Notes under the pieces: model-generated
What the model was told of the DNA's origin: nothing
Seen by the model: only the letters and a program-made list of their open reading frames with translations
Databases searched by the model: none
Source of the DNA: Virgisporangium aliadipatigenens
GTDB lineage: Bacteria > Actinomycetota > Actinomycetes > Mycobacteriales > Micromonosporaceae
Reading direction: 5' to 3'
Assembly: GCF_016863615.1 (NCBI RefSeq)
Contig: NZ_BOPF01000012.1
Span: forward strand, 124,001 to 188,000
DNA length: 64,000 bases
Shown here: piece by piece, positions 2,979-51,475 of the stretch
Numbering within the stretch: position 1 is the first letter of the stretch
How the letters are laid out: each line of letters opens with the position of its first letter
Position numbers and translations under genes: made by a program

Positions 2979-3814
2979 CGAACGTCCTCGCGGACGACGG
3001 CCGGTGGGACGACCTGCTGGCCTTCGCCGCGGATCCGGCCGGTGCGGCGGGGGAGCGGCGGCACGTGGCGCACGTGGTGGCGCTGGAGGCACCGCCGCCG
3101 TTCGCAGTGGCCGCCGCGGAGCTCTTCCCGGACGGTCGGGGGCACATCGGGCCGCTGTGGGACGTCGTCGCGAGCCGGAACGAGTGGTGCGCGCTCGCCC
3201 CGCACCTGAGCGATCCCGGCGTGCGGCGGCTCGTCGCGCAGACCCGCGTGCTGCGCGGCGAGGACCTCTCCGCCGAGGACGCCGACGACGCCGATCCGCC
3301 GCTGCGCCTGCGGGAGTGGGAGGCGGCCCGCTGGGACCCGGAGCGGGACATGTGGTCCTACGACCGCAACGGCTGCACCGGCGCGACGATGTGGGCCTTT
3401 CCCGGGCCCCTGGTCCCGCCGTCGGTCTCGCCGGCGACCGGACGCCCGCCCGTGGAGCACGCGGCCGTGGCGCTGCTGGACGGGCTGTCGCCGGTGGTCC
3501 GGGCGCACGCGGTGCGGGGTCCTGTCCGCAGGGGCACGACGGCCTGGTTCGCTGACGCCTACCCGCATCTGGTGCAGGTGGCGACGGGTGAGCGGGCCGC
3601 CGGACGCGGTACCGGTCACGCGCTCGCCCGGATCGCGCTGTGGCGGGCACTGGCCGCGTCGGCCGGAGCCCGCGACGCCGTCGACGCGTTCGTCGAACGC
3701 CTGCGCTGCGTCACCTGGCGCCGGCCCGAGGACGTGATGTACCACCTGCGCCTGGTCCTGGAGGACCCGACGACGGGGATCGCCTTCGTCCTGACCGGCA
3801 CCGACCGCGACTAG
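2966..3814 (+). CDS. conserved hypothetical protein overlapping the lipid kinase
   Basis: This is a 282-residue soluble protein I do not recognise. It starts with GTG at 2966, overlapping the lipid-kinase stop by 13 bases in another frame, which implies translational coupling. Codon use is normal for this genome and there is no signal peptide or membrane span. The N-terminal 90 residues look helical; a segment rich in Arg, Trp and Asp (about residues 115-140) and a C-terminal YHLRLVLEDPTTGIAFVLTG stretch could help a profile search. Being in an operon with a lipid kinase and the Tat genes says little about its job. Confidence 0.6.
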   Translation: MYHLTNVLADDGRWDDLLAFAADPAGAAGERRHVAHVVALEAPPPFAVAAAELFPDGRGHIGPLWDVVASRNEWCALAPHLSDPGVRRLVAQTRVLRGEDLSAEDADDADPPLRLREWEAARWDPERDMWSYDRNGCTGATMWAFPGPLVPPSVSPATGRPPVEHAAVALLDGLSPVVRAHAVRGPVRRGTTAWFADAYPHLVQVATGERAAGRGTGHALARIALWRALAASAGARDAVDAFVERLRCVTWRRPEDVMYHLRLVLEDPTTGIAFVLTGTDRD

Positions 3815-3934
3815 GTCCTGTCTCGTGGATCACGCCGGCCTGCGGCGGTACGGCGGTGAGGTGGGTGGCTGGGCGCGGAGCCGGCAGCGGAGCGGCCGGT
3901 CACGCGAAGCGGACCGGCCCGGAGCGGTGCGCGC

Positions 3935-3968
3935 GGGAGCGTACGGTCGTGCCCCCGGCGGACGCGCG
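3935..3968. repeat. dispersed intergenic repeat, copy 1
   Basis: This 34-base GC-rich sequence (begins GGGAGCGTACGGTCG, continues GCCCCCGGCGGACGC) has a near-identical second copy at 56308-56341 in the same orientation. Both copies sit just beyond the stop codon of a minus-strand gene (the cupin gene here, the XRE regulator there), and weaker similarity extends up to each stop. The rest of 3815-3984 holds no recognisable gene. Confidence 0.55.
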
Positions 3969-3984
3969 TAGATAGAGATCTTTG

Positions 3985-4458
3985 TCAGACTTCGGGAAGG
4001 ACGACGAGGCCGGTGCGTTCGATGATGTCGGCGACCTGGGCGGCGCGGTCCATGTCCCACACGACCGGCTGCTGACCCGGTACCGGCTCGTCGCCGCCCT
4101 CGACGAAGAGCGCCTCGGGGCCGCCCGGCGTGAACATGAACAGCGTGCGGGCGGGCGTGTTGGAGATGTTCTTGAACCGGTGCCGGCGCCCGCGCGGGAT
4201 GAACAGGAACGAGCCGGCCTCGGCGACGAAGGTGCGGTCCCCGTCGAGGAACTCCAGCGCGCCGTCGAGCAGGTAGAACGCCTCGTCCTCGGCGGTGTGC
4301 GCGTGTGCGATCGGCCCGCTGTCGGGCGGCACGATCGCCTCGATGAACGCGAACGCGCCGTTGGTGTCCTTGGCGGTGGCCTTCATCGTGTAGATGTCGC
4401 CGGAGACCCACTTGGTCAGGCCCTCGCCGGCGGGAACGTGCAGGATTTCGAAGCTCAT
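3985..4458 (-). CDS. cupin-domain protein
   Basis: This is a 157-residue single-domain cupin. The two metal-binding motifs are visible: HAHTAEDEAFYLLDGALEF (about residues 55-73, supplying His, His, Glu) and a second motif around FIPRGRRHRF containing the C-terminal His. Cupins of this size include dioxygenases, isomerases and small-molecule binding proteins; the reaction cannot be assigned. It is divergent from a MarR regulator across a short region with palindromic operator-like sequence, so it is probably that regulator's target. Alternative starts further upstream would run through the operator and are unlikely. Confidence 0.8.
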   Translation of the reverse strand: MSFEILHVPAGEGLTKWVSGDIYTMKATAKDTNGAFAFIEAIVPPDSGPIAHAHTAEDEAFYLLDGALEFLDGDRTFVAEAGSFLFIPRGRRHRFKNISNTPARTLFMFTPGGPEALFVEGGDEPVPGQQPVVWDMDRAAQVADIIERTGLVVLPEV

Positions 4459-4476
4459 GACTCGACACCGTAAGTG

Positions 4477-4490
4477 CTTGTACAAACAAG
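4477..4490. promoter_or_regulatory. operator-like palindrome between cupin and marR genes
   Basis: The sequence CTTGTACAAACAAG has perfect 5-base arms (CTTGT/ACAAG) and contains the perfect palindrome TTGTACAA; a further ACAAG half-site follows at 4493-4497. It is centred in the gap between the divergent cupin and MarR genes, where MarR proteins typically bind. Assignment to the adjacent MarR is inference. Confidence 0.5.
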
Positions 4491-4563
4491 TTACAAGTGG
4501 TTGATATACCAGTACTTCGAGGTGTGTGCCGCCGCGGCGGACCGTCCGCGTATGGTGTCGTGC

Positions 4564-5055
4564 GTGCCGGGAAAGCCGCTCGACCAGCCGCTGGAGGCCG
4601 ATGAGGAGGCCGTGTGGCGGGCCCTCGCGCGGGTGGTGCTCGTGCTGCCCCGGCTCATGGACGCGGACCTGCTGCAGCGGCGCAACCTGACGCTGTCGGA
4701 GTACACGGTGCTGATGACGCTGTCGGAGGCGCCGGGGCGTTCGATGCGGATGGCCGAACTGGCCGCGCGGGTGCCGATCACGCTCAGCGGCCTCACCCGG
4801 CTCGTCGAACGGCTGGCCCGCCAGGACATGGTGACCCGCGCGCGTTCCGGTGCCGACGGGCGGGGTCAGGAGGCGGTGCTCACCGACGCCGGCTTCGAAC
4901 GCCTCCGGGAGGCCTGGCCGGCGCACCTGCAGAGCGTGCGGCGCATCGTCCTGGAGAACCTCGACGGGGTGGACCTGCCGGCGCTGACGCGGGCCCTGGA
5001 GGCGATCGCCGATCACGAGGACGACCGGCGACCCATCCGTCGCAGGGCCCGCTAG
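4564..5055 (+). CDS. MarR-family transcriptional regulator
   Basis: MarR proteins are dimeric winged-helix repressors that release DNA on binding small phenolic or oxidising ligands. The product has the usual order: N-terminal dimerisation helix, the LSEYTVLMTLSEAPGRSMRMAELAARV helix pair, the recognition helix region ITLSGLTRLVERLARQDMV, and the wing motif RSGADGRGQEAVLTDAG. I prefer the GTG at 4564, seven bases after TATGGT at 4551-4556, as a leaderless start (163 residues); an in-frame ATG at 4552 is the alternative. It is divergent from the cupin gene and probably regulates both. Confidence 0.85.
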   Translation: MPGKPLDQPLEADEEAVWRALARVVLVLPRLMDADLLQRRNLTLSEYTVLMTLSEAPGRSMRMAELAARVPITLSGLTRLVERLARQDMVTRARSGADGRGQEAVLTDAGFERLREAWPAHLQSVRRIVLENLDGVDLPALTRALEAIADHEDDRRPIRRRAR

Positions 5056-5126
5056 GCCGTGTGTCGAAGTGGTCGGTCGAGCTGAGTCCGCCGCAGGCCG
5101 GCCAGCCGCTTCGACACACGGCCTAG
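5052..5126. terminator. long perfect inverted repeat between convergent genes (bidirectional terminator candidate)
   Basis: Two 18-base arms (5052-5069 and 5109-5126, beginning CTAGGCCGTGTGTCGAAG) are perfect reverse complements around a 39-base loop. The left arm contains the marR stop codon and the right arm ends two bases before the stop of the convergent CBM2 gene. There is no T-tract, as is common in actinobacterial terminators. Confidence 0.6.
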
Positions 5127-5127
5127 G

Positions 5128-6366
5128 TCAGCAGCCCACCCGGGACGTGCCCACCACCACGTCGTCGAACCACAGCGTGTCGGCGTCGCTGCCGTAGCTC
5201 TCCCAGCCCAGCCGCAGGTCGGTGAGCGCCGGCCGCCAGTTGCCCCGGGCCAGCCACTGGCTGTCCACGTCGTGCGTGGGCACGCCGTCGACGACGAGGC
5301 CGGTCACCTCGGTGCCGTTCAGCCAGGTGCGCAGCGTGCCGGCGGCACCGTCCACTGTGTACTCGACGCAGTTCCAGGCGTTGGTGGGCAACGGTTTGCT
5401 CAGGGAGACGCCGGTCGGGCTCTGTTCGGGCAGCGTCGCGTCGTCGGACTCGCGGTTCCACTGCAGGGCGCCGTTCTGGCCGCCCATGCGCAGGTCCTTG
5501 TTGCCGTCGGCGCTGTCCCGCATCGCGGCGAACGTCGTGTGCGTCGCCGGCAGCGCCGTCGTGTGGCGCACGTAGAAGCGCGTGTACCGGACGCTGCCGA
5601 CCCGCGACAGGTCCACAGTGGACTGCACGAACACGTGGTTGCAGTATCCGCCGCCGCCGTTGACGCGCAACGACTTCGTGCCGCTGCGGGCGATGCCGGT
5701 GTCCACTGTGGCCGTTCCGGTGCCGGAGCAGTTGGGGAACGACATGGTCCAGCCGCCCGAGGGCGTGGTGCCGGTCTGGGTCTCGAAGCCGTCGCAGAGG
5801 GCGGCGCCGTTGCAGCCGACGGGGCCGGACGGGCGTGGGCTACCGCTCTGAGAGGGGCTCGGGCTGCTCGGAGAGGGGCTCAAGCTTCCTCCCTGGGACG
5901 GGCTCGGGCTTCCTCCCTGGGACGGCGTCGGGGACGAGGTGCCGCCGCCGTTGCAGGCGACGCCGTTGAGCGTGAAGCCGGTCGGCGCGCCGAGCGTGCC
6001 GGTGTACGTGCCCTGCACGCCGAACTCGGCCGTCCCGTTCGCCGGCACGGTGCCGTTCCAGCCGGCGTCGCGGGCCGTCACGGCGGTGCCGGACTGGGTG
6101 ACGGTGGCGTTCCAGGCGTTGGTCACCTTCGCGTCGCCCGGGTACGTCCAGGTGAGCGTCCAGCCGCTGAGGGCCTGGTCGCCGCCGCTCAGGCGGACGT
6201 TGGCGGTGAAGCCGTTGGTCCAGGCGTTCGGCTGGTAGGTGACCGTGCAGCCGGTCGCGGCGCTGGCCCGCGGGGCCGTCACGGCGACGAAGGCCGCACC
6301 GGCGAACGCCAACCCGACGGCGAGCGCGCCGACCAACCGTGTCCGCCGCAGGTGTGCTGTGCGCAT
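5128..6366 (-). CDS. secreted CBM2 protein with Cip1-like/concanavalin-type C-terminal domain
   Basis: This 412-residue secreted protein should bind cellulose or related plant polymers. It has a signal peptide (about residues 1-36, ending ASA), a family 2 carbohydrate-binding module (about 38-140, starting TGCTVTYQPNAWTNGFTANV and rich in surface Trp), a Ser/Pro/Gly linker (about 142-180) and a C-terminal domain of about 225 residues. The last resembles, from memory, bacterial Cip1-like proteins (jelly-roll fold with lyase-like relatives), with paired Cys and a final DTLWFDDVVVGTS strand. The linker DNA contains an 18-base direct repeat (5884-5901 and 5908-5925). A GGGAG ribosome-binding site precedes the ATG. 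The CBM2 call is firm; the catalytic domain assignment is tentative. Confidence 0.82.
   Translation of the reverse strand: MRTAHLRRTRLVGALAVGLAFAGAAFVAVTAPRASAATGCTVTYQPNAWTNGFTANVRLSGGDQALSGWTLTWTYPGDAKVTNAWNATVTQSGTAVTARDAGWNGTVPANGTAEFGVQGTYTGTLGAPTGFTLNGVACNGGGTSSPTPSQGGSPSPSQGGSLSPSPSSPSPSQSGSPRPSGPVGCNGAALCDGFETQTGTTPSGGWTMSFPNCSGTGTATVDTGIARSGTKSLRVNGGGGYCNHVFVQSTVDLSRVGSVRYTRFYVRHTTALPATHTTFAAMRDSADGNKDLRMGGQNGALQWNRESDDATLPEQSPTGVSLSKPLPTNAWNCVEYTVDGAAGTLRTWLNGTEVTGLVVDGVPTHDVDSQWLARGNWRPALTDLRLGWESYGSDADTLWFDDVVVGTSRVGC
5611..5623. repeat. recurrent 13-base palindrome GTCCAC-N-GTGGAC (family entry)
   Basis: Perfect palindrome with a free centre base. Identical 6-base arms occur also at 10601-10613, 39168-39180, 40099-40111, 42842-42854 and 48589-48601. 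The shorter core TCCAC-N-GTGGA occurs at 33811-33821, 35794-35804, 45131-45141, 49204-49214 and 63706-63716. Most copies lie inside coding sequence. Function unknown. Confidence 0.7.
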
Positions 6367-6552
6367 CGACGCTCCCGTTCGTTCCCAGGGGTCCGGTCCG
6401 GCCCGCTCCGGCCCGCTCCGGTCCCGAGAATGGCAGCACCCGCCGGATCCGGGGACCGGCGCACGGCCGCTCGATGCCCGTCGATGCGTTCTCCGCGCAG
6501 GTCAGCGCCGGTCGGGAAGATGTCGCGTGGATGAAACCTTGCAGCCCCGCGA

Positions 6553-6573
6553 TCCGGACGTCGATCGTCCGGA
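6553..6573. promoter_or_regulatory. operator-like inverted repeat upstream of the VOC gene
   Basis: TCCGGACG and CGTCCGGA form perfect 8-base arms around a 5-base spacer. The repeat overlaps the expected -35 region of the promoter whose -10-like TACGAT is at 6582-6587, so a bound protein would block transcription of the gene starting at 6595. No regulator gene is adjacent, so its ligand is unknown. The rest of the gap 6367-6594 shows no gene. Confidence 0.45.
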
Positions 6574-6594
6574 ACCGGTCCTACGATCCGGGGC

Positions 6595-6951
6595 ATGGCT
6601 ATCGCACGTTTCCCCAGCTTCGTGATCGACTGCCCGGATCCGGCCGCGCTCGCCCGCTTCTACGGGGAACTGCTGGACTGGAAGGTCGAGTCGTCCGACG
6701 ACTGGGCCGACATCCGCGCGGACAACGGCAACTGCATCTCGTTCCAGAAGGTGGACGACTACACGCCGCCGCAGTGGCCGGATCAGCGGGTGCCGCAGCA
6801 GGTGCACCTCGACGTCATCGTCGACGACCTCAACACCGGCGAGGCGGCCGTGCTCGCCCTCGGCGCGACCCGCCACGCGCACCAGCCGGGCACGTCGTTC
6901 CGGGTGTTCCTGGACCCGGCCGGCCACCCGTTCTGCCTCTGCGTGAACTGA
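6595..6951 (+). CDS. VOC-family (glyoxalase/bleomycin-resistance fold) protein
   Basis: This is a 118-residue single-domain vicinal-oxygen-chelate protein. The opening FPSFVIDCPDPAALARFYGELLDW and the closing FRVFLDPAGHPFCLCVN are characteristic of the actinobacterial VOC subgroup of about 115-120 residues. Candidate metal or ligand residues include the His in QQVHLDVIVDD and the C-terminal DPAGHPF region. Members vary from enzymes to drug-binding proteins, so no reaction is assigned. The ATG lies seven bases after TACGAT, suggesting leaderless expression. A hairpin terminator follows directly. Confidence 0.85.
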   Translation: MAIARFPSFVIDCPDPAALARFYGELLDWKVESSDDWADIRADNGNCISFQKVDDYTPPQWPDQRVPQQVHLDVIVDDLNTGEAAVLALGATRHAHQPGTSFRVFLDPAGHPFCLCVN

Positions 6952-6966
6952 CCCCGCTCAGCGGGG
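6952..6966 (+). terminator. short GC hairpin after the VOC gene
   Basis: CCCCGC-TCA-GCGGGG forms a perfect 6-base stem with a 3-base loop starting immediately after the VOC stop codon. It also lies just before the stop of the convergent lipoprotein gene at 6981, so it could serve both genes. Confidence 0.6.
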
Positions 6967-6980
6967 CCGGCGGGCTGCGC

Positions 6981-7445
6981 TCACGTCGTGAACGCCACCA
7001 GGTACACCACCGGCTCGGCCGGCCGGTCGTTGTCGACGAGCACCTTGCGGTACACCGCCTCCACGGGCGCGGCGGTCTGGTCGAGCCCGGCCACGTCCGT
7101 CGCGCCGTCGGGCTTCCACGCGGCGTCGCCGGTGCGGTCGCCGTTGGTCACCGCGCGGGTGCCGGCGGCCGGTGCGGTGAAGCCGCTGCCGGTCAGGAAC
7201 GCGGGCAGTTCGGCCGCCGGGACGCGCAGCTTGGCGGTCAGGTGGTAGTCGATGCCGGCCTGGTAGCGCGTCGATTCGACCACGGTGCCGGCGGTGAGCC
7301 GCACCTTGGCGTACTTCTGCAGTTCGTCGTTCGTGAGCGTGCGCGCGCCGACGTCGCGGCCGTCACCGGGATCCGTGGTGGCGCAACCGCTTCCGAGCAC
7401 GGCGACGGCGGCCAGTGCCAGGGCGGCGACGAACGATCTTCGCAT
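6981..7445 (-). CDS. putative lipoprotein of unknown function
   Basis: The 154-residue product begins with a basic residue pair, a hydrophobic stretch and the lipobox LGSGC (Cys at residue 21), so it should be lipid-anchored on the outer face of the membrane. The mature part is polar, with a segment HLTAKLRVPAAELPAFL (about residues 68-84) reminiscent of small actinobacterial lipoproteins of unknown role. No catalytic motif was recognised. It is convergent with the VOC gene and not obviously in an operon. Confidence 0.72.
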   Translation of the reverse strand: MRRSFVAALALAAVAVLGSGCATTDPGDGRDVGARTLTNDELQKYAKVRLTAGTVVESTRYQAGIDYHLTAKLRVPAAELPAFLTGSGFTAPAAGTRAVTNGDRTGDAAWKPDGATDVAGLDQTAAPVEAVYRKVLVDNDRPAEPVVYLVAFTT

Positions 7446-7506
7446 GCCGGAAACGGTAGCGACGGCGATCGACGTTCCGGCCGGCGCGGGCGTTCGATGA
7501 CACGAA

Positions 7507-8013
7507 TCAGGGGGACTTCTTGCGGCGTCGCGGCGCCGCCGAACGGGGCGGCGTCGCGCGCATGTGGTCGCGCACCGGCGTCAGCAGCGCGGCGAGGGTC
7601 TGCGCGTCGGCGCGGGGGAGCGGGTCGAAGAGCATCCGGGTGACCACCTCGGTGTGTCCGGGGAAGACCTTGGCGAGCAGCGCCCGCCCGGCGTCGGTGA
7701 TGGTGACCGTGGTGGCGCGTTCGTCGCCGGGGGTGGGGGTGCGGGTGACCAGACCCGCCTTCTCGAGCAGGCCCGCCTGGTAGGTGAGGCCGCTGCGGCT
7801 GAACACGATGCTGTCGGCCAGGTCGGTCATGCCGCGGCTGCCGTCGGGCGACCAGCGGTCGAGCCGGGCCAGGATCTGGAACTGCACGAAGCTGATCGAG
7901 CCGTCCTCGCGCAACTGCTGCTCGATGGCGTGCCGCAGCAGGCTGGTCACCTCGATGAGGGCGAAATAGGCGCCGAGCTGCACGGGGTCGACCGACTCCG
8001 GCGCGTGTGACAT
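7507..8013 (-). CDS. MarR-family transcriptional regulator
   Basis: This 168-residue winged-helix regulator has the helix pair FVQFQILARLDRW, the recognition region DLADSIVFSRSGLTYQAGLLEKAGLV, the wing RTPTPGDERATTVTITDAG and a basic C-terminal tail (RRRKK). It is divergent from an NADP-dependent oxidoreductase gene. Two palindromes built on TTCGAA/TTCGA lie between the genes, one about 17 bases upstream of this start. The simplest reading is an autoregulated repressor of the oxidoreductase-esterase operon that responds to an electrophile or quinone; the ligand is inference. Confidence 0.87.
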   Translation of the reverse strand: MSHAPESVDPVQLGAYFALIEVTSLLRHAIEQQLREDGSISFVQFQILARLDRWSPDGSRGMTDLADSIVFSRSGLTYQAGLLEKAGLVTRTPTPGDERATTVTITDAGRALLAKVFPGHTEVVTRMLFDPLPRADAQTLAALLTPVRDHMRATPPRSAAPRRRKKSP

Positions 8014-10441: not shown

Positions 10442-11314
10442 TCAGTCGACCAGGGGGCGGATGTCGCGCGCGACCATCTCGATGAAGCCCTCGAGATCCG
10501 GTTCGTCCGGGGTCGGCTGCAGGATCACCGTCTGCGCGCCGGCCGCCGCCCAGGTGCGCACCGCCGCCGCGATCGCCTTCGCGTCGCCGGTCACCACCCT
10601 GTCCACAGTGGACTCGTAGCCCCAGCGCTCCCGTTCGCCCTCCATGCGCTCGTCGGCGGTCGGGCCGGTGGCCGCGTGCACGTACAGGACCACCGGCACC
10701 GGCTCGGGGCGGGAGGCGGCGTGCGCACCCTCGTTCAACAGAGAGATCGCCTCGGTGAGCGCGGCGGGTGAGGTGCCCGCGACGACGACCGCCCCGTCGG
10801 CCGATCCACCCACCAACCGCATGGAACGCGGCCCGATCGCGCCGGCGAGGATCTCCGGCGCCCGCTCCGGCGGCCAGTCCAGCGTGACGTTGCGCAGCGT
10901 GACGTAACGCCCCTCGGTGCTGACGGTCTCGCCGCGCAGCAGCGCCCGCAGCGCGTCGAGGTACTCGCGCAGCAGCGTCAACGGCGACTCGACACGGGCG
11001 TTGACCTGGTGCATCCAGTCCTGCGCGCCGTGCCCGACGGCGATGCGCACGCGGCCGGGGAAGAGCCGTTCGAGGGTGGCGATCTCCATCGCGGTCGCGG
11101 CGACGTTGCGCAGCGGCACCGGCAGCAGGCCGACGCCGACCCGCAGCGTGTCGCTCCAGGCGAGCGCCGCCGCGGCCGTCGCGATGCCGCTCTCGCGGAA
11201 GCAGTCCTCCCAGAGCCACAGCTCCTCGAGGCCGCACTCCTCGGCCTTTTCCACGATGGAACGGAGCCGCTCCGGCGGCAGGTACGGAAGGAAGACGGCG
11301 CCCAGTGTGGTCAT
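10442..11314 (-). CDS. LLM-class flavin/F420-dependent oxidoreductase
   Basis: This 290-residue protein belongs to the luciferase-like monooxygenase superfamily, a TIM-barrel fold using F420 or FMN. Typical segments are the N-terminal LRSIVEKAEECGLEELWLWED, the GRVRIAVGHGAQDWMHQV region after the first half, and the PEILAGAIGPRSMRLVGGSADG block that contacts the cofactor. The ATG at 11314 overlaps the stop of the upstream LysR gene as ATGA, so the two are translationally coupled. The substrate is unknown; F420 rather than FMN is likely from similarity to actinobacterial relatives. Confidence 0.85.
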   Translation of the reverse strand: MTTLGAVFLPYLPPERLRSIVEKAEECGLEELWLWEDCFRESGIATAAAALAWSDTLRVGVGLLPVPLRNVAATAMEIATLERLFPGRVRIAVGHGAQDWMHQVNARVESPLTLLREYLDALRALLRGETVSTEGRYVTLRNVTLDWPPERAPEILAGAIGPRSMRLVGGSADGAVVVAGTSPAALTEAISLLNEGAHAASRPEPVPVVLYVHAATGPTADERMEGERERWGYESTVDRVVTGDAKAIAAAVRTWAAAGAQTVILQPTPDEPDLEGFIEMVARDIRPLVD

Positions 11315-12195
11315 GAGCAAAGGCTAGCGATCTCCACGCGCACCAGCTCGCGGAGCCAGGCGTGCGCGGCGTCCGTGTCGTAGCGCTGGTGCCAGACGCA
11401 GACGAGCGGCGCCGCCGGCACCGGCAGCGGAAGCGGCGTGGTGTGCAGCCCGAACGCCGCCACCAGCGGCCGGCACATCAGCTCCGGCGCGGTCAGCAGG
11501 AAGTCGCCGGCGCTGACGGTGTGCAGCGCGGCGGCGGTGGTGCCGACCGACGCGACGACCCGGCGGTGCAGCCCGCGCTCGGCGAGCAGCGTGTCGACCG
11601 GGTCGCTGAGCCGGCCGCGCCGGGAGATCAGGATGTGCTGCCGCGCGGCGTACCCCTCGAGGTCGAGTCGGCCCGGGTCCCGCCGGACGACCACGAGCCG
11701 GTCGTGCCCGACGGTCGCGGAGCCGAACTCCGGCAGCGCCGGCGGATCGGCCCCGATCTCCAGGTCGACGCGGCCGTGCCGCAGGTCGTCGGTGTCCACA
11801 CTGGACTCCGCCAGGAACCGCAGCCGCACGCCCGGCGCCGCGTCGGCGACCGCCCGCAGCAGCGGCGGGGCGAGGGTCATGGCGACGGCGTCGTGGCACT
11901 GCAGCGTGAAGGTGCGATCGAGCGCGGCGAGGTCCAGCTCGCGGCTCGGTGCCAGCACGGCGCTGGCCTGGCGCACCAGCTCGGCGACCTGCTCCCGAAC
12001 GGCGAGCGCGTACGGCGTGGGCGTCATCGTGCGGCCGGTGCGCACCAGGATGTCGTCGCCGGTCAACCGGCGGATGCGGCCCAGGGTGCGGCTGACGGCG
12101 GGTGAGGACAGGCGCAGGCGGTCGGCGGCGCCCATGACGCTGCCCTCCTCGAGGAGGGCGTGCAGGGCGGTGAGGAGGTTGAGATCTAGTTGCAT
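11311..12195 (-). CDS. LysR-family transcriptional regulator
   Basis: This 294-residue regulator has the N-terminal LysR winged helix (LNLLTALHALLEEGSVMGAADRLRLSSPAVSRTLGRIRRLTGDDILVR compressed into residues 5-53) and a periplasmic-binding-like effector domain from about residue 90. It is divergent from an inositol-phosphatase-like gene, with a 66-base gap, and overlaps the downstream LLM gene by ATGA. LysR proteins usually activate the divergent gene and repress themselves. The effector cannot be inferred. Confidence 0.88.
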   Translation of the reverse strand: MQLDLNLLTALHALLEEGSVMGAADRLRLSSPAVSRTLGRIRRLTGDDILVRTGRTMTPTPYALAVREQVAELVRQASAVLAPSRELDLAALDRTFTLQCHDAVAMTLAPPLLRAVADAAPGVRLRFLAESSVDTDDLRHGRVDLEIGADPPALPEFGSATVGHDRLVVVRRDPGRLDLEGYAARQHILISRRGRLSDPVDTLLAERGLHRRVVASVGTTAAALHTVSAGDFLLTAPELMCRPLVAAFGLHTTPLPLPVPAAPLVCVWHQRYDTDAAHAWLRELVRVEIASLCS

Positions 12196-45144: not shown

Positions 45145-45975
45145 TCAGGCCGCCGCACGTTCGATCGCCGCGGCGACCTCCTCGCCCGACCAGCCCTCGG
45201 CGGGGCGTTCCAGCCGCAGCACCGGCACCGTCCGGGCGAGCGCCGCCAGCCAGCGCAGGTACGCCTCCGGATGCAACGCCCGCAGGAACGGCCGGTACGT
45301 CTCGACCGCCAGCACGTGCGCGGCCGCGGCCCCGTCGAGGCGGTGCACCCGCGGCCGGTCGAGGCCGGGCACGGCGCGCAGCGCGACCACCAGGTCGAGC
45401 CGGTGTGAGCCGCCGGCCGGCTCCGTCACCGCGAACGCGTACTTCTGCTCGCCCGGCCAGGACAGCTCCCCGTCGGACGGGTCGTAGCCGAGGCGCCGGG
45501 CCGTCTCGGGCCACAGTCGCAGCCGCTTCCCGGTCGGCCGCACGACGGCGGCACCGGCACCCGGTTCGACGGCGGTGACGTCGTCGGTGACGATCGGGTG
45601 GCCACGCTCGGCGAGCAGGCCGACCGTGGTGGACTTGCCGACGCCGCGCGGCCCGGCCGTCGCCACCAGCCCGTCGCCGACGCGCACCGTCGAGGCGTGC
45701 AAAGCGAACGTGCCGCGCTGCGCCAGCACCAGCGCGGTGACCGTGCCGTGCAGAACGGTGTCCAGCACCGCCTGCGGCACGCCCTCGACCGGATCGACCA
45801 CCACCCGCCGGCCGTCCCGGACGTGAAAGGCGCCGACGTCGGGTATCCGCACCAGTGCCTCCCGCGCGGTGGCCCGCAGCCACGGCGCGTCGACGGCGGG
45901 TGCCGGAACGTCGTCCGGCACCGCGCCGCGTTCCACCGACGCGTCGAGAACCTCGTGCCGCGCCGCGACCGTCAA
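45145..45975 (-). CDS. HPr-kinase-like lasso peptide kinase (K1)
   Basis: This 276-residue protein resembles the C-terminal kinase domain of HPr kinase: LHASTVRVGDGLVATAGPRG, the P-loop GPRGVGKST (residues 108-116) and the acidic pair Asp131-Asp132 in VTDDVTAV. Proteins of this kind (PadeK, ThcoK) phosphorylate the C-terminal serine of lasso precursors. It starts with TTG at 45975, overlapping the precursor stop (TTGA), so it is translationally coupled to the precursor, which ends in serine. The substrate assignment is inferred. Confidence 0.78.
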   Translation of the reverse strand: MTVAARHEVLDASVERGAVPDDVPAPAVDAPWLRATAREALVRIPDVGAFHVRDGRRVVVDPVEGVPQAVLDTVLHGTVTALVLAQRGTFALHASTVRVGDGLVATAGPRGVGKSTTVGLLAERGHPIVTDDVTAVEPGAGAAVVRPTGKRLRLWPETARRLGYDPSDGELSWPGEQKYAFAVTEPAGGSHRLDLVVALRAVPGLDRPRVHRLDGAAAAHVLAVETYRPFLRALHPEAYLRWLAALARTVPVLRLERPAEGWSGEEVAAAIERAAA

Positions 45976-46121
45976 GACAGGTCCACGCTGCTGCTGGGCA
46001 CCGCGGTGTTGTCGGGGGTGTCGACGCCGCCGGCGGCCGTCGCGTCGGCGCGCAGTCGGGTCAGCGCCGGTGCCCGCCAGGTCCGGCGGGCCGGACGGCG
46101 TTCGTCCTCGTGCTGCTGCAT
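45972..46121 (-). CDS. lasso peptide precursor (A), predicted
   Basis: This 49-residue peptide was found by reading the gap between the cyclase and kinase genes. The leader (residues 1-29) contains WRAPALTRLRADATA: Trp15-x-x-Pro18-x-Leu20 fits the lasso leader recognition motif YxxPxL with Trp for Tyr, and Thr28 is at the conserved -2 position. The predicted core (residues 30-49) begins AGGVDTPDNT and ends SVDLS; an 8-membered ring Ala1-Asp8 is likely. Its start resembles that of paeninodin as I recall it, and the C-terminal Ser is the expected phosphorylation site. ATG at 46121 follows GGAAG; GTG at 46133 is an alternative. Confidence 0.72.
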   Translation of the reverse strand: MQQHEDERRPARRTWRAPALTRLRADATAAGGVDTPDNTAVPSSSVDLS

Positions 46122-46156
46122 GCGTTCTTCCACGTGAGATGCGGATTTCGGCGTGC

Positions 46157-48142
46157 TCAGTGCGGTCCGGCCAGCGCCGCGGGGCGTCGGGCGGCCGTTC
46201 GACGGGTGGCGTAGCCGTCGAACCAGCGCAGGTACCGGCTGAGGGCCAGGACCCGGGGGAGCAGGAAGGCGTGGGCGTCGCGGCAGGCGGCGTCGGCCGC
46301 CCGTTCCGGCGCGGGGGGCTCACGCACCAGCCGCGCGATGCGGTCCAGGTCCACCAGCGCGGCCGTCGTCGGGTGGCCCCGCGCCCGGGCCAGCTCCGCG
46401 GCGAGTTCGGCGTGGGCGTCGGCGATCCGGTCGAACCAGTCCGGCACCTGCGCACCGCGCGCCTTGCGCAGGCGGATCTCGTCGGGCAGCCGGCCGGCCA
46501 TCGCCATGCGCAGCGCGCTCCGGCCGATGCCCCGGTGCCGGCGGGCCCAGGCCGGCTGGCGGGCGCACGCGGTCAGCAGTTCGACGTCGACGGTCGGGTC
46601 GGACTGCCACCAGCCGCCCCGGGCCTCGCGCACGGCGATGTTCTCGGCGGCCGACGCGACCGCGTCCAACTCGAACGTCGGGTAGCGGCGCGGGTGATGG
46701 CCGGCGGTGCCCGGGAACTGGCCGCGCAACGCCCGGTGCAGGCGCGGGTCGGCGACGATGTCCGGCCGCAGCCCGGAGCGCGCCAGCGTTCGGGTGATCA
46801 GGTCCGGCCGGCCGCGGGCCGCGGAGACCAACCGCCGCAGGGGCTGCGGGACCAGCTGCGGGACGACGTTCGTCCGCAGGAGCCGCGCGAGCGACCCGTC
46901 GCGGGCGGCCGCCCAGGCACGCGCCTCCCGCCAGGCCTCGACGGGGCGGCCGGCGCCGAGCAGCGCCACCAGCCAGCGCGGGTCGTCGGCGGAGAACGCG
47001 ATGTTGCCGAGCGCGCCGGTGAGGAGGAGGGAGACGCCGTCGTCGGCGGCGCGCCGTTCGGCGACCCGGAGCCAGGTCATGTTGAGGGTGTTGCGCACGG
47101 GCGACGCCCCTGCGGCGAACCGGTCGGGGTCCCCGTCGACGACGGCCTCGCCCCGGCCGTCGACGAACGCGGGCACCAGGTTGGGATACCGCGCGGCGAG
47201 CACCCGCACCAGCCCGCTCTCGTCGGGCTCGAACCCGAAGGCGGGACCGCTCCAGCCCGGCGGCGGCACCGACGTGTAGGAGCGCACCGGTTCGGGCGCC
47301 AGCGCCCCGGCCGCGGTCGCGGCGACGGACGTCGAGTCGAGGCCGCCGCTGAGCAGCACGCCCACCGGCCCGCGCCGGCGACGCACGCGGGCCCGCACCG
47401 CCTCGTCCAGCGCGTCGCGCAGCTCTTCGGCGTGCTCGGCGGCGGAACCGTGCCGCACCGGCCGGTGCTCGAACGTCCAGTACGTCCGCTCGCGCACCCC
47501 GTCGGGCGTGATCCACAGCGCGGTGGCGCGCGGCACCGGCGACACGTCCCGGAACCAGCTGCGGCGCGTGCTCGCGACGAGTCCCAGGAACTCCTTCGCG
47601 CGCTCCAGGTCCGGCGCGACCGGCACGCCGTCGAACCCGGTGACGGCCACCGCGGTGCTGGCGAAGCAGACCCGGCCGCCATCGCGGTACACGTGCAGCG
47701 GCCGGGTGCCGAGATGGTCGCGCGCGACGAGGACACCGCCGCGGCGCCGGTCGGCGATCGCCCCGGCGAAGCCGCCGCGCAGTCGCTGCCAGCAGCGGTC
47801 GCCCCAGCGGAGGTAGGCGTGCAGGACGAGGTGCGCGTCGGCGAGGTTGCGGTCGTCGGGCAGGCCGAGCGCGCGGCACAGCGCGGGCCGGTTGGTCAGC
47901 ACGGCGTCGGCGACCACCACGACGTCGCCGACGCTGGCGCACACCGGCTGGTCGTCGCCGTCGTCCTCGGGCACCCGCCGGCGCCGCGTCGCGCCGAGCG
48001 CCACCGCCGTCGCGCCGACCGGCCCGGCCCAGGTGCCCTCGCCGTCGCCGCCCAGGGGCGCGAGCAGGTCGAGCACGGGGCGCAGTTCGGCGGCGCGCAC
48101 CGGTGCGCCGTCCGTACGGACGAGGCCGGCGACGGCGGTCAC
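46157..48142 (-). CDS. asparagine-synthetase-like lasso cyclase (C)
   Basis: This 661-residue protein has an N-terminal glutaminase-like domain without the catalytic N-terminal Cys (begins MTAVAGLVRTDG) and a synthetase domain with the PP-loop SGGLDST (in GVLLSGGLDSTSVAATAAG). Lasso cyclases of this build adenylate the ring Asp/Glu and form the macrolactam. Start is GTG at 48142, divergent from the PqqD gene. It is the first gene of a C-A-K1 operon, with the precursor only 35 bases downstream. Confidence 0.87.
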   Translation of the reverse strand: MTAVAGLVRTDGAPVRAAELRPVLDLLAPLGGDGEGTWAGPVGATAVALGATRRRRVPEDDGDDQPVCASVGDVVVVADAVLTNRPALCRALGLPDDRNLADAHLVLHAYLRWGDRCWQRLRGGFAGAIADRRRGGVLVARDHLGTRPLHVYRDGGRVCFASTAVAVTGFDGVPVAPDLERAKEFLGLVASTRRSWFRDVSPVPRATALWITPDGVRERTYWTFEHRPVRHGSAAEHAEELRDALDEAVRARVRRRRGPVGVLLSGGLDSTSVAATAAGALAPEPVRSYTSVPPPGWSGPAFGFEPDESGLVRVLAARYPNLVPAFVDGRGEAVVDGDPDRFAAGASPVRNTLNMTWLRVAERRAADDGVSLLLTGALGNIAFSADDPRWLVALLGAGRPVEAWREARAWAAARDGSLARLLRTNVVPQLVPQPLRRLVSAARGRPDLITRTLARSGLRPDIVADPRLHRALRGQFPGTAGHHPRRYPTFELDAVASAAENIAVREARGGWWQSDPTVDVELLTACARQPAWARRHRGIGRSALRMAMAGRLPDEIRLRKARGAQVPDWFDRIADAHAELAAELARARGHPTTAALVDLDRIARLVREPPAPERAADAACRDAHAFLLPRVLALSRYLRWFDGYATRRTAARRPAALAGPH

Positions 48143-48190
48143 CGCGGCTCGCCCGAAGTTCGCATGCCGTAATCTTGACGCACGATTCGC

Positions 48191-48214
48191 GTTATATGTC
48201 AGGATTTAAGGGTG
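48191..48214 (+). promoter_or_regulatory. promoter-region motif shared by B1 and B2 genes, copy 1
   Basis: GTTATATGTCAGGATT starts this stretch and runs to the GTG at 48212. A matching motif, GTTATGTCAGAATT followed by TGGGATG, precedes the B2 start at 51049-51070. The region 48143-48211 also serves the divergent cyclase operon. A -10-like TATATG and an upstream TTGACG (48176-48181) are present but the spacing is short. Confidence 0.5.
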
Positions 48215-48505
48215 TTGTCTGACGAACAGCTTTCCCGCGCCGTGACCATCGTTCGCGCCGACGCGCCGCTGACCGCCGACGTCGGCGACGAACTGGTGAT
48301 GCTGAGCCCCGAGCACGGCGAGTACTTCGGGCTCAACGCCGTCGGCACCAGGATCTGGGAGCTGATCGCCGAGCCCCGCGCGCTGAGCGAACTGTGCGCC
48401 CGACTCGCCGACGAGTTCGAGGTCGACGACGAGACCTGCCGGGCCGAGGTGCTGGAGTTCCTGCGACAGCTCGCGGAGGTGGACCTGGTGCGGGTCGGTC
48501 CGTGA
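48212..48505 (+). CDS. PqqD-like lasso leader-recognition protein (B1)
   Basis: This 97-residue PqqD-fold protein (RiPP recognition element) binds the precursor leader and guides it to the protease. It shows the typical LVMLSPEHGEYFGLNAVGTRIWELI and the C-terminal FLRQLAEVDLVRV. In actinobacteria B1 and B2 are separate proteins, as here, B2 being about 2.5 kb downstream. Start is GTG at 48212 or TTG at 48215. The stop overlaps the next gene (GTGA). Confidence 0.85.
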   Translation: MLSDEQLSRAVTIVRADAPLTADVGDELVMLSPEHGEYFGLNAVGTRIWELIAEPRALSELCARLADEFEVDDETCRAEVLEFLRQLAEVDLVRVGP

Positions 48506-49224
48506 CGGCGGCGCCGGTGCGGCCGGCGTGGACGGTGCTCGGCATCCCGGTGACCGTCGGGCCCGCGCCGGAGCGGATCCCCGCGGCCGTCCACAGTGGA
48601 CCGTTGTGCCGCGCCTGGGCCGACGGGTACCGGTTCCACCTGCCGACGGTCGGGCTCTTCTCGGTCGAACGGCATGACGGCGCCGTGGCGCTGACCGGCG
48701 ACGCGGCGACCGGCAAGTCCGCGGTGGCCGGGGCGCTGGGCGTTCGGGGACACGCGGTGCTCGCCGACGGCGCGCTGCCGATCGCGCACACCACCACCGG
48801 ACCCGTGGCGGAACCGGCCGACGACGGCGTGCAGCTGTGGCCGGACATCGCGCGGCGGCTGGGCCTCGGCGGCGGGGCGGTGATCCGGCCACGCCTGGCC
48901 AAGCGGCGGCACCGGTTCGCCGCCGCGCCGGCCGCGCCGCTGGGCGCCGTCGTGGTGCTGCGCCACGGCGGCGGAGCGCGGGACCCGGTCGCCCGGCCGA
49001 TGAACGGGCCGGCCGCCGTGCGGGCCCTCGCGCACCTGACCGCCGGTCGGCCGCTCGTGCCGGCGTTCGGCGCGACGGCGGCACACTTCGCGTGGTGCAC
49101 CCGCCTCGCGGCGGCCGTTCCGGTGCTCGAACTCCGCCGCGACCCGCTGCGCGACGATCTCACCGCGCTGGCCGACGCCGTCGCTTCCACCGTGCCAGGA
49201 ATGTCCACAGTGGAGGGTCGATGA
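48502..49224 (+). CDS. second HPr-kinase-like protein (K2) with altered acidic motif
   Basis: This 240-residue protein has the P-loop GDAATGKS (residues 66-73) and the fold outline of HPr-kinase-like lasso tailoring proteins, but the acidic pair that follows in K1 is Asp89-Gly90 (ADGALPI) here. It may be a diverged kinase or pseudokinase. It overlaps the PqqD stop (GTGA) and the sulfotransferase start (ATGA), so it is part of a B1-K2-sulfotransferase operon. A GTCCAC-A-GTGGAC palindrome is at 48589 and a TCCAC-A-GTGGA near its end. Confidence 0.72.
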   Translation: MTAAPVRPAWTVLGIPVTVGPAPERIPAAVHSGPLCRAWADGYRFHLPTVGLFSVERHDGAVALTGDAATGKSAVAGALGVRGHAVLADGALPIAHTTTGPVAEPADDGVQLWPDIARRLGLGGGAVIRPRLAKRRHRFAAAPAAPLGAVVVLRHGGGARDPVARPMNGPAAVRALAHLTAGRPLVPAFGATAAHFAWCTRLAAAVPVLELRRDPLRDDLTALADAVASTVPGMSTVEGR

Positions 49225-50069
49225 GCGTGGCCGCGCCGCACACCGTGTGGCTCGCCTCGTATCCGCGTTCGGGCAACACCTGGACGCGCGCCGTGCTCGA
49301 CCGGTTGGCCCCGGACGGTCCCGCCGACGTCGATCTGCACGCGCTCGGCGGTGGGCCCATCGCGGGCAGCCGGATGGTGCTCGACCCGTATCTCGGCTTC
49401 CCCTCCAGCGACCTGCTGCCGTCGGAGGTCGACGCGGTGCGGCCGGCGTGCGAGGCCGCGTTCGACGCCGATCTGGACCGGCTGCGGTTCCGCAAGGCGC
49501 ACGACGTCCTGTGCGGCGCGCCCGGCGGTGCTCCGGTCGTTCCCCCGAATGCCACCCGGGCCGCGATCTACCTGGTCCGGGACCCGCGCGACGTGGCGGT
49601 CTCCTGGGCCCACTTCTTCGGACGCCCGCTGGCCACGGCCGTGGCCGAACTGGCGGACCGCGACACGATCCTCGACTCCGGCGGCGACGGCATCACGGCC
49701 CAGGCCCGGCAGCGGCTCGGCACCTGGAGCTGACACGTCACGAGCTGGACGGCGCACGCTCCCTTCCCGGTGGCCGTGGTCCGCTACGAGGACCTGCACG
49801 CCGACCCGGTCGCCGGCTTCGCGCGGATGGCCGCGACGGCGGGACTCGCGACGACTCCCGACCGGGTCGCGGCGGCGGTGGCGGCGACCCGCTTCGCGCG
49901 GCTGCGGGGACTGGAGGCGGCGCACGGCTTCCCGGAACGCCCCGCGGCCGCCACGACCTTCTTCCGCCGCGGCGCCGTCGGCGGCTGGCGCGACGACCTC
50001 CCCGCCCACCTGGCCCGCCGGATCGAGCGCGCCCACGGCGAGGCGATGGCCGATCTCGGCTACCTCTGA
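49221..50069 (+). pseudogene. sulfotransferase-like gene with in-frame TGA
   Basis: The frame from ATG 49221 to 50069 encodes 282 residues but is interrupted by TGA at 49731-49733 (codon 171). The first part has the PAPS-binding signature SYPRSGNTW and the 3'-phosphate motif RDPRDVAVSWAHFF; after the stop the same frame continues with VVRYEDLHADPVAGFARM and further sulfotransferase-like sequence. No frameshift is needed. Either a recent nonsense mutation, a sequencing error, or stop-codon readthrough would explain it. It overlaps K2 (ATGA) and could sulfate the lasso peptide if functional. Confidence 0.75.
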
Positions 50070-50084
50070 AACCGATGCGGTCGG

Positions 50085-51019
50085 TCAGGCCGGCGGCTGG
50101 GGGAGTGCGGCGGACAGGCGGGGGGCGAGACTTCGGGCGTAGGTCCCCGTCAGGTGGTTGTTGTCGCGGTAGAACAGGACGCCGCCGATCACCGGCGCGC
50201 AGGGGTCGGCCGGGCAGACGGCGGCGGTGAGGTCCACCAGCGAGACGCCGTTCAGCCCGCGCGCCGCCTCGAGCTGCGCGGCCGCCGCGGCCCGGTTCGT
50301 CGCCCGGGCCCTGGGCGTGGCGCACCGGGTCAGCCGGTCCCGGTTGGCCGTGACGCACTCGGCGACGTTCGTGGCCATGACCGGGGTGTCCACCAGCACC
50401 GCGACCGGCAGCCCCGCGTCGGCCAGCTCGGACCAGGTGGGCCGCAGCCCGTCGACGAACAACGCCGGCGCCGGCACCGGCTCGCCGAACGCGAGCGGGT
50501 AACGGCCGCTGGTGGTGAGCACCGGGTCGGGCCGGTCGTCGCCGAGGAGCGCGGCGCGCACGTTCGCGCTCCACCGCCGGCAGTCCGGCTGGGCGCGCGG
50601 GCCCGGGACGGGAAACGTCTCCCCGGCGAACGGGCACGAGCCCTTCACGTACGTGACCACCCGCCACCGCCGCTGCGCCGCGACGGCGCGCACGGCGGGC
50701 AGCCACGCCGCGGCGTGCGAGTCGCCGACCAGCGCGACCGTGTACGTGCCGCGCGCCGAACCGAACTCGCAGCGCCGGCCGGCGGCAGGATCCGTTTCGC
50801 GCGGCGGGAGTAGAAGCGCAGCACGTCGATCCGTCCGGTGGTGGCCAGTTCGCCGACGAGGATGCCGGTGATGAGAAAGCCGGAGATGACGAAGAACAGG
50901 TCGACGCCGACGAATCCGCCGGGAAGCACCGCCACGCAGATGTGCGCGGTGACGACGACGATGAGCCCCACCCCGCGCAGGCCCTCGATGTCGCCGCGGA
51001 ACGCCGTGGATGCTCGCAC
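50085..51019 (-). pseudogene. OafA-type acyltransferase/SGNH remnant with internal deletion
   Basis: The 5' part (ATG at 51019) encodes about 80 residues of an acyltransferase-3 N-terminus (DIEGLRGVGLIVVVTAHI, GGFVGVDLFFVISGFLITGIL, FYSRRAKRILPPA). Around 50778-50788 the frame changes and the rest (about 230 residues) is an SGNH-hydrolase domain with VALVGDSHAAAWLPAV and a C-terminal FYRDNNHLTGTYA. The acyltransferase membrane domain, several hundred residues, is missing. So it is a deletion-frameshift remnant of an OafA/YrhL-like peptide or cell-wall O-acyltransferase. Confidence 0.72.
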
Positions 51020-51048
51020 GGGACAAAGCCTAGGGCCAGATTTAGGAC

Positions 51049-51070
51049 GTTATGTCAGAATTCTGGGATG
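51049..51070 (+). promoter_or_regulatory. promoter-region motif shared by B1 and B2 genes, copy 2
   Basis: GTTATGTCAGAATTCTGGG ends at the ATG of the B2 gene. It matches the B1 upstream motif, GTTATATGTCAGGATT, with two bases missing and a few changes. The two copies would put both maturation genes under one signal. Confidence 0.5.
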
Positions 51071-51475
51071 CCTCGAACGCGCACCCTGCTCCTCGCCGGT
51101 GAGGCGGCGGTCGCGCTGACCGGCGCCACGCTCGCGGTCCGGTCGCTCGGCCAGCGGCGCCTGATGCGCACCCTGGGCCGGGCGACCCCGGCCGAGACGG
51201 AAGAGACCGTGCGGCCGGAGCGGGTCCGGCGGGCCCGACGCGTCGCGGGGATCGTGGACCGGGTGGCGGACCTGCTGCCGTGGCATCCCGTCTGCCTGCC
51301 CCGGGCGCTGGCGACCCGGGCACTGCTGCGCCGCCGGGGCATCGCGTGCGAACTCCACCTCGGCATCACCGGCACCGCCCCGCTGGCCGCGCACGCCTGG
51401 GTGACCGCCGGCGGCGCGGTGGTGCAGGGCGGCCCGATCGGTCACATCACCCCGCTCGCCACCCTGCGCCGGTAG
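51068..51475 (+). CDS. lasso peptide leader protease, transglutaminase-like (B2)
   Basis: This 135-residue protein is a transglutaminase-like cysteine protease of the lasso B2 type: HPVCLPRALATRALLRRRGIACELHLGI holds the nucleophile Cys76 and LAAHAWV the His109. The third triad residue, usually Asp in a VDG motif shortly after, reads AGG here and is not obvious. It removes the leader before cyclisation. The gene lies apart from B1, beyond a decayed acyltransferase, and its end overlaps the convergent EIIC gene by 29 bases. Confidence 0.8.
   Translation: MPRTRTLLLAGEAAVALTGATLAVRSLGQRRLMRTLGRATPAETEETVRPERVRRARRVAGIVDRVADLLPWHPVCLPRALATRALLRRRGIACELHLGITGTAPLAAHAWVTAGGAVVQGGPIGHITPLATLRR

Follow-up and report, generated by a model that had tools for sequence, protein, structure and literature searches.

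A paeninodin-like lasso peptide locus in an actinobacterium and its possible share in a proposed two-locus pathway of pseudokinase-guided sulfation

The paeninodin and pseudomycoidin clusters of Bacillota combine a leader-binding protein and a leader peptidase split over two genes (B1/B2), a kinase resembling HPr kinase (HPrK) with the residue set His-Lys-Asp-Asp (HKDD), a WxxP leader and a C-terminal Ser on the precursor. The linear polyphosphorylated peptides (LPPs) likewise have a recognition element (RRE) of ribosomally synthesised and post-translationally modified peptides (RiPPs), an HprK-like kinase and a lasso-like leader motif, but they have no cyclase and lose their leader by a signal-peptidase-type step (PMC13381572). 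The locus described here lies at 45145-51475 of the window, the whole 64,000-nucleotide stretch analysed (C12:124001-188000 of an assembly of 10.3 Mb in 112 contigs). It encodes a cyclase (C), a Ser-ended precursor (A), an HPr-kinase-like kinase (K1), a PqqD-like B1 and a transglutaminase-like B2, together with a second kinase-like protein (K2) and a sulfotransferase (ST). We read it as a paeninodin-like lasso locus of a Micromonosporaceae-type actinobacterium which, with a probability of roughly 0.5, would form half of a two-locus system with pseudokinase-guided sulfation. An earlier, sequence-only reading had described the cluster, and it is real and mostly as first described, but at the window locus the sulfotransferase is broken and the second kinase likely dead.

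The predicted phosphorylation branch and its relatives

Overlapping start and stop codons (TTGA at A/K1, GTGA at B1/K2, ATGA at K2/ST), a third-position GC content (GC3) of 0.85-0.96 in A, K1, C, B1, K2, ST and B2, and homologous clusters elsewhere argue that the cluster is real and not a product of chance. In lasso peptides, the ring acceptor is an Asp or Glu at core position 7-9. The precursor A agrees with this rule, having a predicted core AGGVDTPDNTAVPSSSVDLS at 45975-46034 and a putative Ala1-Asp8 ring, and with two further rules for lasso precursors, a [Y/W]xxPx[L..] leader motif (PMC13381572), here of the W-x-x-P-x-L type (WRAPAL), and a Thr at position -2 (PMC10368454). When it is aligned with the precursors of a second cassette on contig C54 of the same genome and of two Micromonospora-labelled relatives, G218 and G262, the W, P, L, RL, T(-2), A(-1), G2, D8 and the last Ser are invariant.

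The domain matches and alignments bear out all five components named by the sequence-only reading. C contains Asn_synthase (PF00733) and GATase (PF13537) domains, and its best curated match is the lasso cyclase family NF033535 (3.5e-60), at 204 bits and below the cut-off of 525; it is 48-52% identical to its three relatives (49% for C54, 51-52% for G218 and G262). B1 is over the cut-off of PF05402 (2.6e-22) and just under that of NF033536 (76.6 bits, cut-off 80), while B2 has a Transglut_core3 domain and reaches 83 bits with NF033537 (cut-off 33). K1 matches the HPr kinase C-terminal domain PF07475 weakly (4.7e-4, on 45145-45957) and clearly by alignment, in which its HKDD set is complete; its identity to the K1 proteins of C54, G218 and G262 is 44-48%. 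These four residues are reported to be conserved and needed in lasso kinases (PMC9266682), and their variants in the kinase BsfK had activity diminished to varying degrees (PMC10368454). Because A has a C-terminal Ser and a W-type leader, and K1 retains all four catalytic residues, a phosphorylated paeninodin-like product is a well-supported prediction for the window locus. The assignment to the paeninodin type can therefore be kept, with the reservation that A matches no NCBIfam or Pfam family at E<=0.1 and that neither an ABC exporter, already reported absent, nor a nucleotidyltransferase was read among the frames of 45145-51475 (read by eye, with no profile search of all frames). The gene set of the locus is incomplete.

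Compared with the paeninodin and pseudomycoidin clusters, the locus is thus without nucleotidyltransferase and exporter, carries K2 and ST in addition, has a divergent gene order and is actinobacterial. Against a Priestia plasmid cluster annotated as paeninodin-family, identity is 23% for C, 24% for K1, 31% for B1 and 24% for B2. Paeninodins have been called restricted to Bacillota (PMC13381572). The closest relatives of C lie in the kinase-N-D lasso clusters of G262 (Micromonospora sp. HNM0581) and G218, which also encode K1, B1 and B2 and whose precursors have the same frame as A, TA followed by [AS]G...D8...S; they differ in having a nucleotidyltransferase and an ABC protein (by reading, with no profile scan) and show no ST or K2 by tblastn. 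A cluster on a plasmid of Thalassobaculum sp. OXR-137 (L041) holds K1, A, C, K2, ST, B2 and B1 in one place, and its K2, beside ST, has lost the His and the second Asp like that of the window, but it is alphaproteobacterial, includes an ABC transporter and a nucleotidyltransferase, and has an intact ST. At 10574-11371 the same cluster has another gene with a weak resemblance to sulfotransferases (PF13469, below cut-off).

A kinase look-alike beside a sulfotransferase

The more unusual part of the locus is the pairing of an HPrK-fold protein that has lost catalytic residues with a sulfotransferase. In K2 the Walker A Lys and the first Asp are kept, the second Asp is Gly, and the segment that would contain the catalytic His is absent from the alignment (-KDG). 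The Pfam match to HPr kinase is weak (0.0076); the structure model has a predicted local distance difference test score of 73.8, and all 12 of its PDB matches at E<=0.001 are HPr kinase/phosphorylases, with TM-scores of only 0.37-0.57. Alignment and model together suggest that K2 is an HPrK-fold protein and probably not an active kinase. The earlier label of a second kinase-like protein thus holds for the fold, whereas activity is improbable with two of the four residues needed by lasso kinases lost.

The Walker A Lys is retained in the window K2 and in three other degenerate kinases treated below, so that ATP binding is possible, and the targets of lasso kinases vary, BsfK phosphorylating a ring Ser (PMC10368454). 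The kept Lys weighs against the reading of K2 as a pseudokinase, and both points would suit a K2 that is still an active kinase for another Ser/Thr or a phosphate, with ST sulfating an unrelated hydroxyl. We regard this as improbable: the His and the second Asp, needed in the lasso kinases tested (PMC9266682, PMC10368454), are missing, the K2' protein of the C54 cassette and the relative in L048 are also without the Lys, and the C54 core offers a single hydroxyl residue.

The sulfotransferase gene is present as had been claimed, and both of its halves match PF00685 (Sulfotransfer_1) over the cut-off, but an in-frame TGA at 49731-49733 breaks its reading frame; a genome search with ST', the intact counterpart in the C54 cassette, also flags one TGA. 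Moreover, the Lys of the 5' loop for the sulfate donor 3'-phosphoadenosine 5'-phosphosulfate (PAPS), PKSG, is invariant in nine relatives and Arg in the window ST. Both defects count against a sulfation pathway at this locus, and the copy is probably dead. A coding-like composition persists beyond the TGA (GC3 0.95), so that the break could be recent or stem from an error of assembly; the motifs RYED and FFRRG also lie in this part of the frame. If the TGA were an assembly error, the window cluster alone would make a phosphorylated and sulfated lasso peptide, an improbable outcome given that the loop Lys is changed as well. Of the phosphorylated and possibly sulfated product first proposed, the phosphate is therefore supported, whereas sulfation is unsupported at the window locus alone, since its ST is interrupted, and gains plausibility only from the intact ST' in the C54 cassette.

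To see the pairing in a wider frame, ten ST loci were read: the window, L013 (the C54 cassette), L038, L039, L040, L041, L042, L047, L048 and L049. As a query, ST' matched one of 354 family genomes (E<=1e-20; 7 candidates scored per genome), which was the own genome, hit twice and both times in a lasso cassette beside K2 or its counterpart. In a phylum sample of 396 genomes, where 6 candidates were scored for each, it matched two at E<=1e-15, and on plasmids it matched five records, the fifth of which (Pararhizobium, 26% identity) is outside the ten loci. In L042, a single open frame of 601 codons, counted from its ATG (272-2074), encodes both ST and the kinase, with an inner kinase start possible, and this frame as query matched 3 of 51 relatives of G1318, G1318 included. 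The ten loci span Actinomycetota and Alphaproteobacteria, and in all ten an HPrK-like gene adjoins ST or shares its frame, although L047, L048 and L049 were found through the ST-kinase query and are thus not fully blind to the kinase. A cyclase-like gene is present in eight, by its own profile in seven and as a short Asn_synthase protein (PF00733) in L048. Short frames with a W/YxxP motif number 44 in these loci, 13 of them Ser-ended; ten Ser-ended frames, in eight of the ten loci, are precursor-like by position (picked by eye), and three (one each in L038, L042 and L049) were set aside as chance.

Catalytic residues are lost in seven of the ten kinases nearest to ST, compared with none of 18 others (15 HKDD, 2 HKDE, 1 HKED; Fisher 1.0e-4, Asp/Glu swaps accepted). 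The degenerate sets read -KDG in the window, RTDR in C54, SKDG in L039, QKDG in L041, RTDS in L048 and QKDD in L049. The seventh, in L047, lies between B1 and ST and is a K2-like frame that has diverged strongly and lacks a P-loop, with an HKDD kinase beyond B1; the frame has an E-value of 2.2e-6 among 5919 frames with a combined profile and no match with a K2-only profile. L047 was moved to the degenerate group after this frame had been spotted by eye, and with L047 counted as intact the test gives 7.1e-4. Left out of the count were L026 (one kinase split over two frames, HK and DD, and a second, HKDE, under the score filter), the duplicate L017 and the kinases of L054, L055 and L056.

Several points weigh against a general link between lost catalysis and ST. 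Intact kinases are nearest to ST in L038 (HKDD), L040 (HKDE) and L042 (HKDD), where the one kinase could do both tasks; L039 and L040 show no cyclase within 9 kb. With Asp/Glu swaps taken as losses, the proportions become 8/10 and 3/18 (p 0.003). The Fisher tests ignore relatedness and the counts are not independent, as the window K2, K2' and the L048 kinase, three of the degenerate rows, form one clade (99/97), which includes G1423 of another family. On the tree, built with six degenerate rows before L047 was reassigned, these rows need three changes and cluster no tighter than shuffled labels (239/500 as low); the tree does not show the degenerate kinases to be one group.

A plainer explanation would be an ordinary phospho-lasso cluster of K1, B1, B2 and C, in which K2 and ST are decaying leftovers without a role. 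The stop codon and the exchanged Lys of ST, the residues and the N-terminal stretch lost from K2, and the neighbouring acyltransferase gene, also a remnant, fit such decay. K2, however, is an open frame with a GC3 of 0.91, C54 retains K2' and ST' (34-50% identity), the K2 clade extends to another family, and the order B1-K2-ST recurs in L047. We therefore consider the leftover explanation unlikely and prefer a K2 that works with a sulfotransferase.

A second cassette and a proposed shared pathway

The cyclase relative at G000:C54 was found by a search with C in the same genome. In the 20 kb read around it, the cassette consists of C', A', K1', K2' and an intact ST'. The predicted core of A' is AGAGVMPDGPMMMMPMFS; it has no Lys, and Ser18 is its only Ser/Thr/Tyr. 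Neither B1 nor B2 was found in these 20 kb by tblastn or profile. In the whole genome, PF13471 (Transglut_core3) had one match with all 60 candidates scored, the B2 of the window, and PF05402 had two, the window B1 and a protein on C72. Because the C54 cassette is without B1 and B2 and the only B2 found is that of the window, the two loci may form one system.

This sharing rests mainly on the single B2, and the use of the window B1 by A' is the weaker part of the idea. A W or Y in the leader directs the choice of RRE in Bacilli, but RREs of other phyla, such as the actinobacterial FusB1, have a relaxed leader specificity, and paeninodins are described as confined to Bacillota (PMC13381572), which makes the W-type leader a weak argument for a common B1. 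A missed B2 is possible too, the assembly being in 112 contigs. Both considerations count against a joint system. Alternatively, C54 could be a decaying partner that has lost B1 and B2 and makes nothing, so that no system in trans exists. The missing pair in the surrounding 20 kb is what this scenario would predict; that C', A', K1' and ST' all remain open and that A' has its leader motif in common with the window precursor makes it rather unlikely, and a joint system remains our preferred reading.

The C72 match belongs to a third phospho-RiPP-like locus of the genome (L054, G000:C72:8001-20000, 3775-7998). It comprises an ABC protein (PF00005), PqqD, an HPrK-like kinase (tblastn to K1 6.5e-7; without a Pfam match), a nucleotidyltransferase (PF14907) and a Y-type precursor-like frame, adjoins what reads as polysaccharide genes and resembles linear phosphopeptide clusters of Bacilli. 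With this Y-type frame and neither cyclase nor B2 in the stretch examined, its PqqD is the less likely partner of C54, and a link of its ABC protein and nucleotidyltransferase to the window cluster is unproven.

In the pathway we propose, B1 would bind the W-type leader of both precursors, B2 would cut after Thr-Ala, K1 would phosphorylate the C-terminal Ser before folding, and C would close the Ala1-Asp8 ring. K2, with its kinase fold and lost catalytic residues, would hold the Ser-ended tail or phospho-tail for the sulfotransferase, and ST' would sulfonate the C-terminal Ser or the phosphate on it; the sulfation branch of the window would probably be off unless ST' acts in trans. Given a cut after Thr-Ala and a single lactam, the predicted [M+H]+ of the lasso is 1870.8665 for the window core and 1950.8328 for its phosphorylated form, and 1839.7429 for the C54 core and 1919.6997 for its sulfated form. 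The presenting role is suggested because the protein fittest to bind the C-terminal Ser has the HPrK fold and a degenerate HPrK protein adjoins ST. If ST' acts on the C54 core, the acceptor would be Ser18, its phosphate or a carboxylate, since Ser18 is the only hydroxyl residue and the N-terminus is used by the ring. With a single such residue, the kinase and the sulfotransferase have three options: a common target residue, the phosphate, or a target outside the core.

By sequence, the nearest solved structures to ST' are Teg14 and Teg12 (5.5e-15 to 4.7e-9 for the relatives Teg12, Teg14 and StaL). These enzymes catalyse PAPS-dependent O-sulfation of glycopeptide scaffolds, which are not RiPPs, and we know of no kinase partner for them. 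Sulfatyrotides are a class of sulfated RiPPs (PMC9484694) with Tyr sulfation, and the two predicted cores here are without Tyr. At gene level, "new combination", as the cluster had been called, is too strong: putative sulfotransferase genes have been mentioned at the start of some Firmicutes kinase-lasso clusters (PMC8498205, citing Zhu 2016c), and the Thalassobaculum plasmid cluster holds two kinases and ST. The gene combination itself is a variant of a known theme. No description was found in the open literature of the pairing of ST with a pseudokinase, of ST and kinase in one frame or of a pathway divided between two loci, nor of a characterised sulfated lasso peptide, within a literature that leaves out most subscription journals; a 2026 review (PMC13352647) never mentions a sulfotransferase, its one occurrence of 'sulfat' being a sulfatase reference.

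If true, a pseudokinase that presents a substrate to another enzyme would give the HPrK fold a new function among RiPP pathways, none such having been found in the open literature, and the idea of a shared B2 bears on how split RiPP pathways persist. A broader and doubtful proposal is that HPrK-fold pseudokinases, which once phosphorylated the last Ser of phospho-RiPP precursors, are now tail readers for a PAPS sulfotransferase across Actinomycetota and Alphaproteobacteria. They would yield a C-terminal sulfo-serine or a phosphate-sulfate anhydride on lasso, perhaps also linear, peptides, and in this genome the pathway would be divided between two loci with a common leader peptidase, where one ST is broken and the other could work in trans.

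Gene arrangement and further loci

C, A and K1 lie on the minus strand, and B1, K2, ST and then B2 on the plus strand, with the acyltransferase remnant between ST and B2 (Table 1). Because start and stop codons overlap at B1/K2 and K2/ST, K2 and ST are very likely part of the B1 operon. A motif TTA(TA)TGTCAG[AG]ATT occurs at 48192 before B1 and as a near-copy, TTATGTCAGAATT, at 51050 before B2; these are its two matches in the window, and it is possibly a promoter element shared by both genes. No motif common to the upstream regions of the window and of C54 was found when one was looked for. The acyltransferase remnant, recognised as such from the outset, retains AT3 sequence at the N-terminal end and SGNH sequence (9.9e-36) at the C-terminal end, in different frames and with the middle gone, and its NF058601 match spans only positions 495-713 of 723.

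Table 1. Features of the lasso peptide locus in window coordinates
Feature	Coordinates	Strand	Remarks
K1, HPr-kinase-like lasso peptide kinase	45145..45975	-	276 aa, TTG start overlaps A stop
A, precursor peptide	45972..46133	-	53 aa, Ser-terminated
C, lasso macrolactam cyclase	46157..48142	-	661 aa, SGGLDS intact
Divergent intergenic region	48143..48211		motif TTATATGTCAGGATT ahead of B1
B1, PqqD-like leader-binding protein (RRE)	48212..48505	+	PF05402
K2, HPrK-fold protein, probable pseudokinase	48502..49224	+	alignment, structure model
ST, PAPS-type sulfotransferase, interrupted	49221..50069	+	PF00685 on both halves
AT3-SGNH O-acyltransferase remnant	50085..51019	-	NF058601, SGNH
B2, transglutaminase-like leader peptidase	51068..51475	+	NF033537, PF13471

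Searches with C at E<=1e-60 matched 1 of 3 genomes in the genus sample, 3 of 354 in the family, 1 of 397 in the order and 1 of 394 in the class sample; these samples share members, 3 candidates were scored per genome in the family, order and class samples, and the own genome is the only match in the genus, order and class samples. No cyclase was found in plasmids at 1e-30, and a single-protein cyclase search of named genomes gave no match, while a search of the same genomes with a four-row cyclase alignment gave at least 18 loci. With L017 set aside as a duplicate of the L015 record, 17 of these remain (L018-L034), and no ST was found in the 17 by tblastn or profile, on contigs of which several are short.

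Three of the ten ST loci show arrangements of their own. On the Tistrella mobilis plasmids pTM3 (L039, 9973-10559) and pTM1 (L040, 6391-7156), the kinase-ST pair stands with two tandem Ser-ended WxxP precursor-like frames, and such a pair may also serve linear peptides. At 9575-11105 of L048, the short Asn_synthase-like protein, without a recognised amidotransferase domain and possibly a minimal or altered cyclase, has as neighbours K2, ST and a precursor-like frame of Y type that ends in Ser. In the actinobacterial locus L042, the ST-kinase frame adjoins an ABC protein, B1, C and a weak B2.

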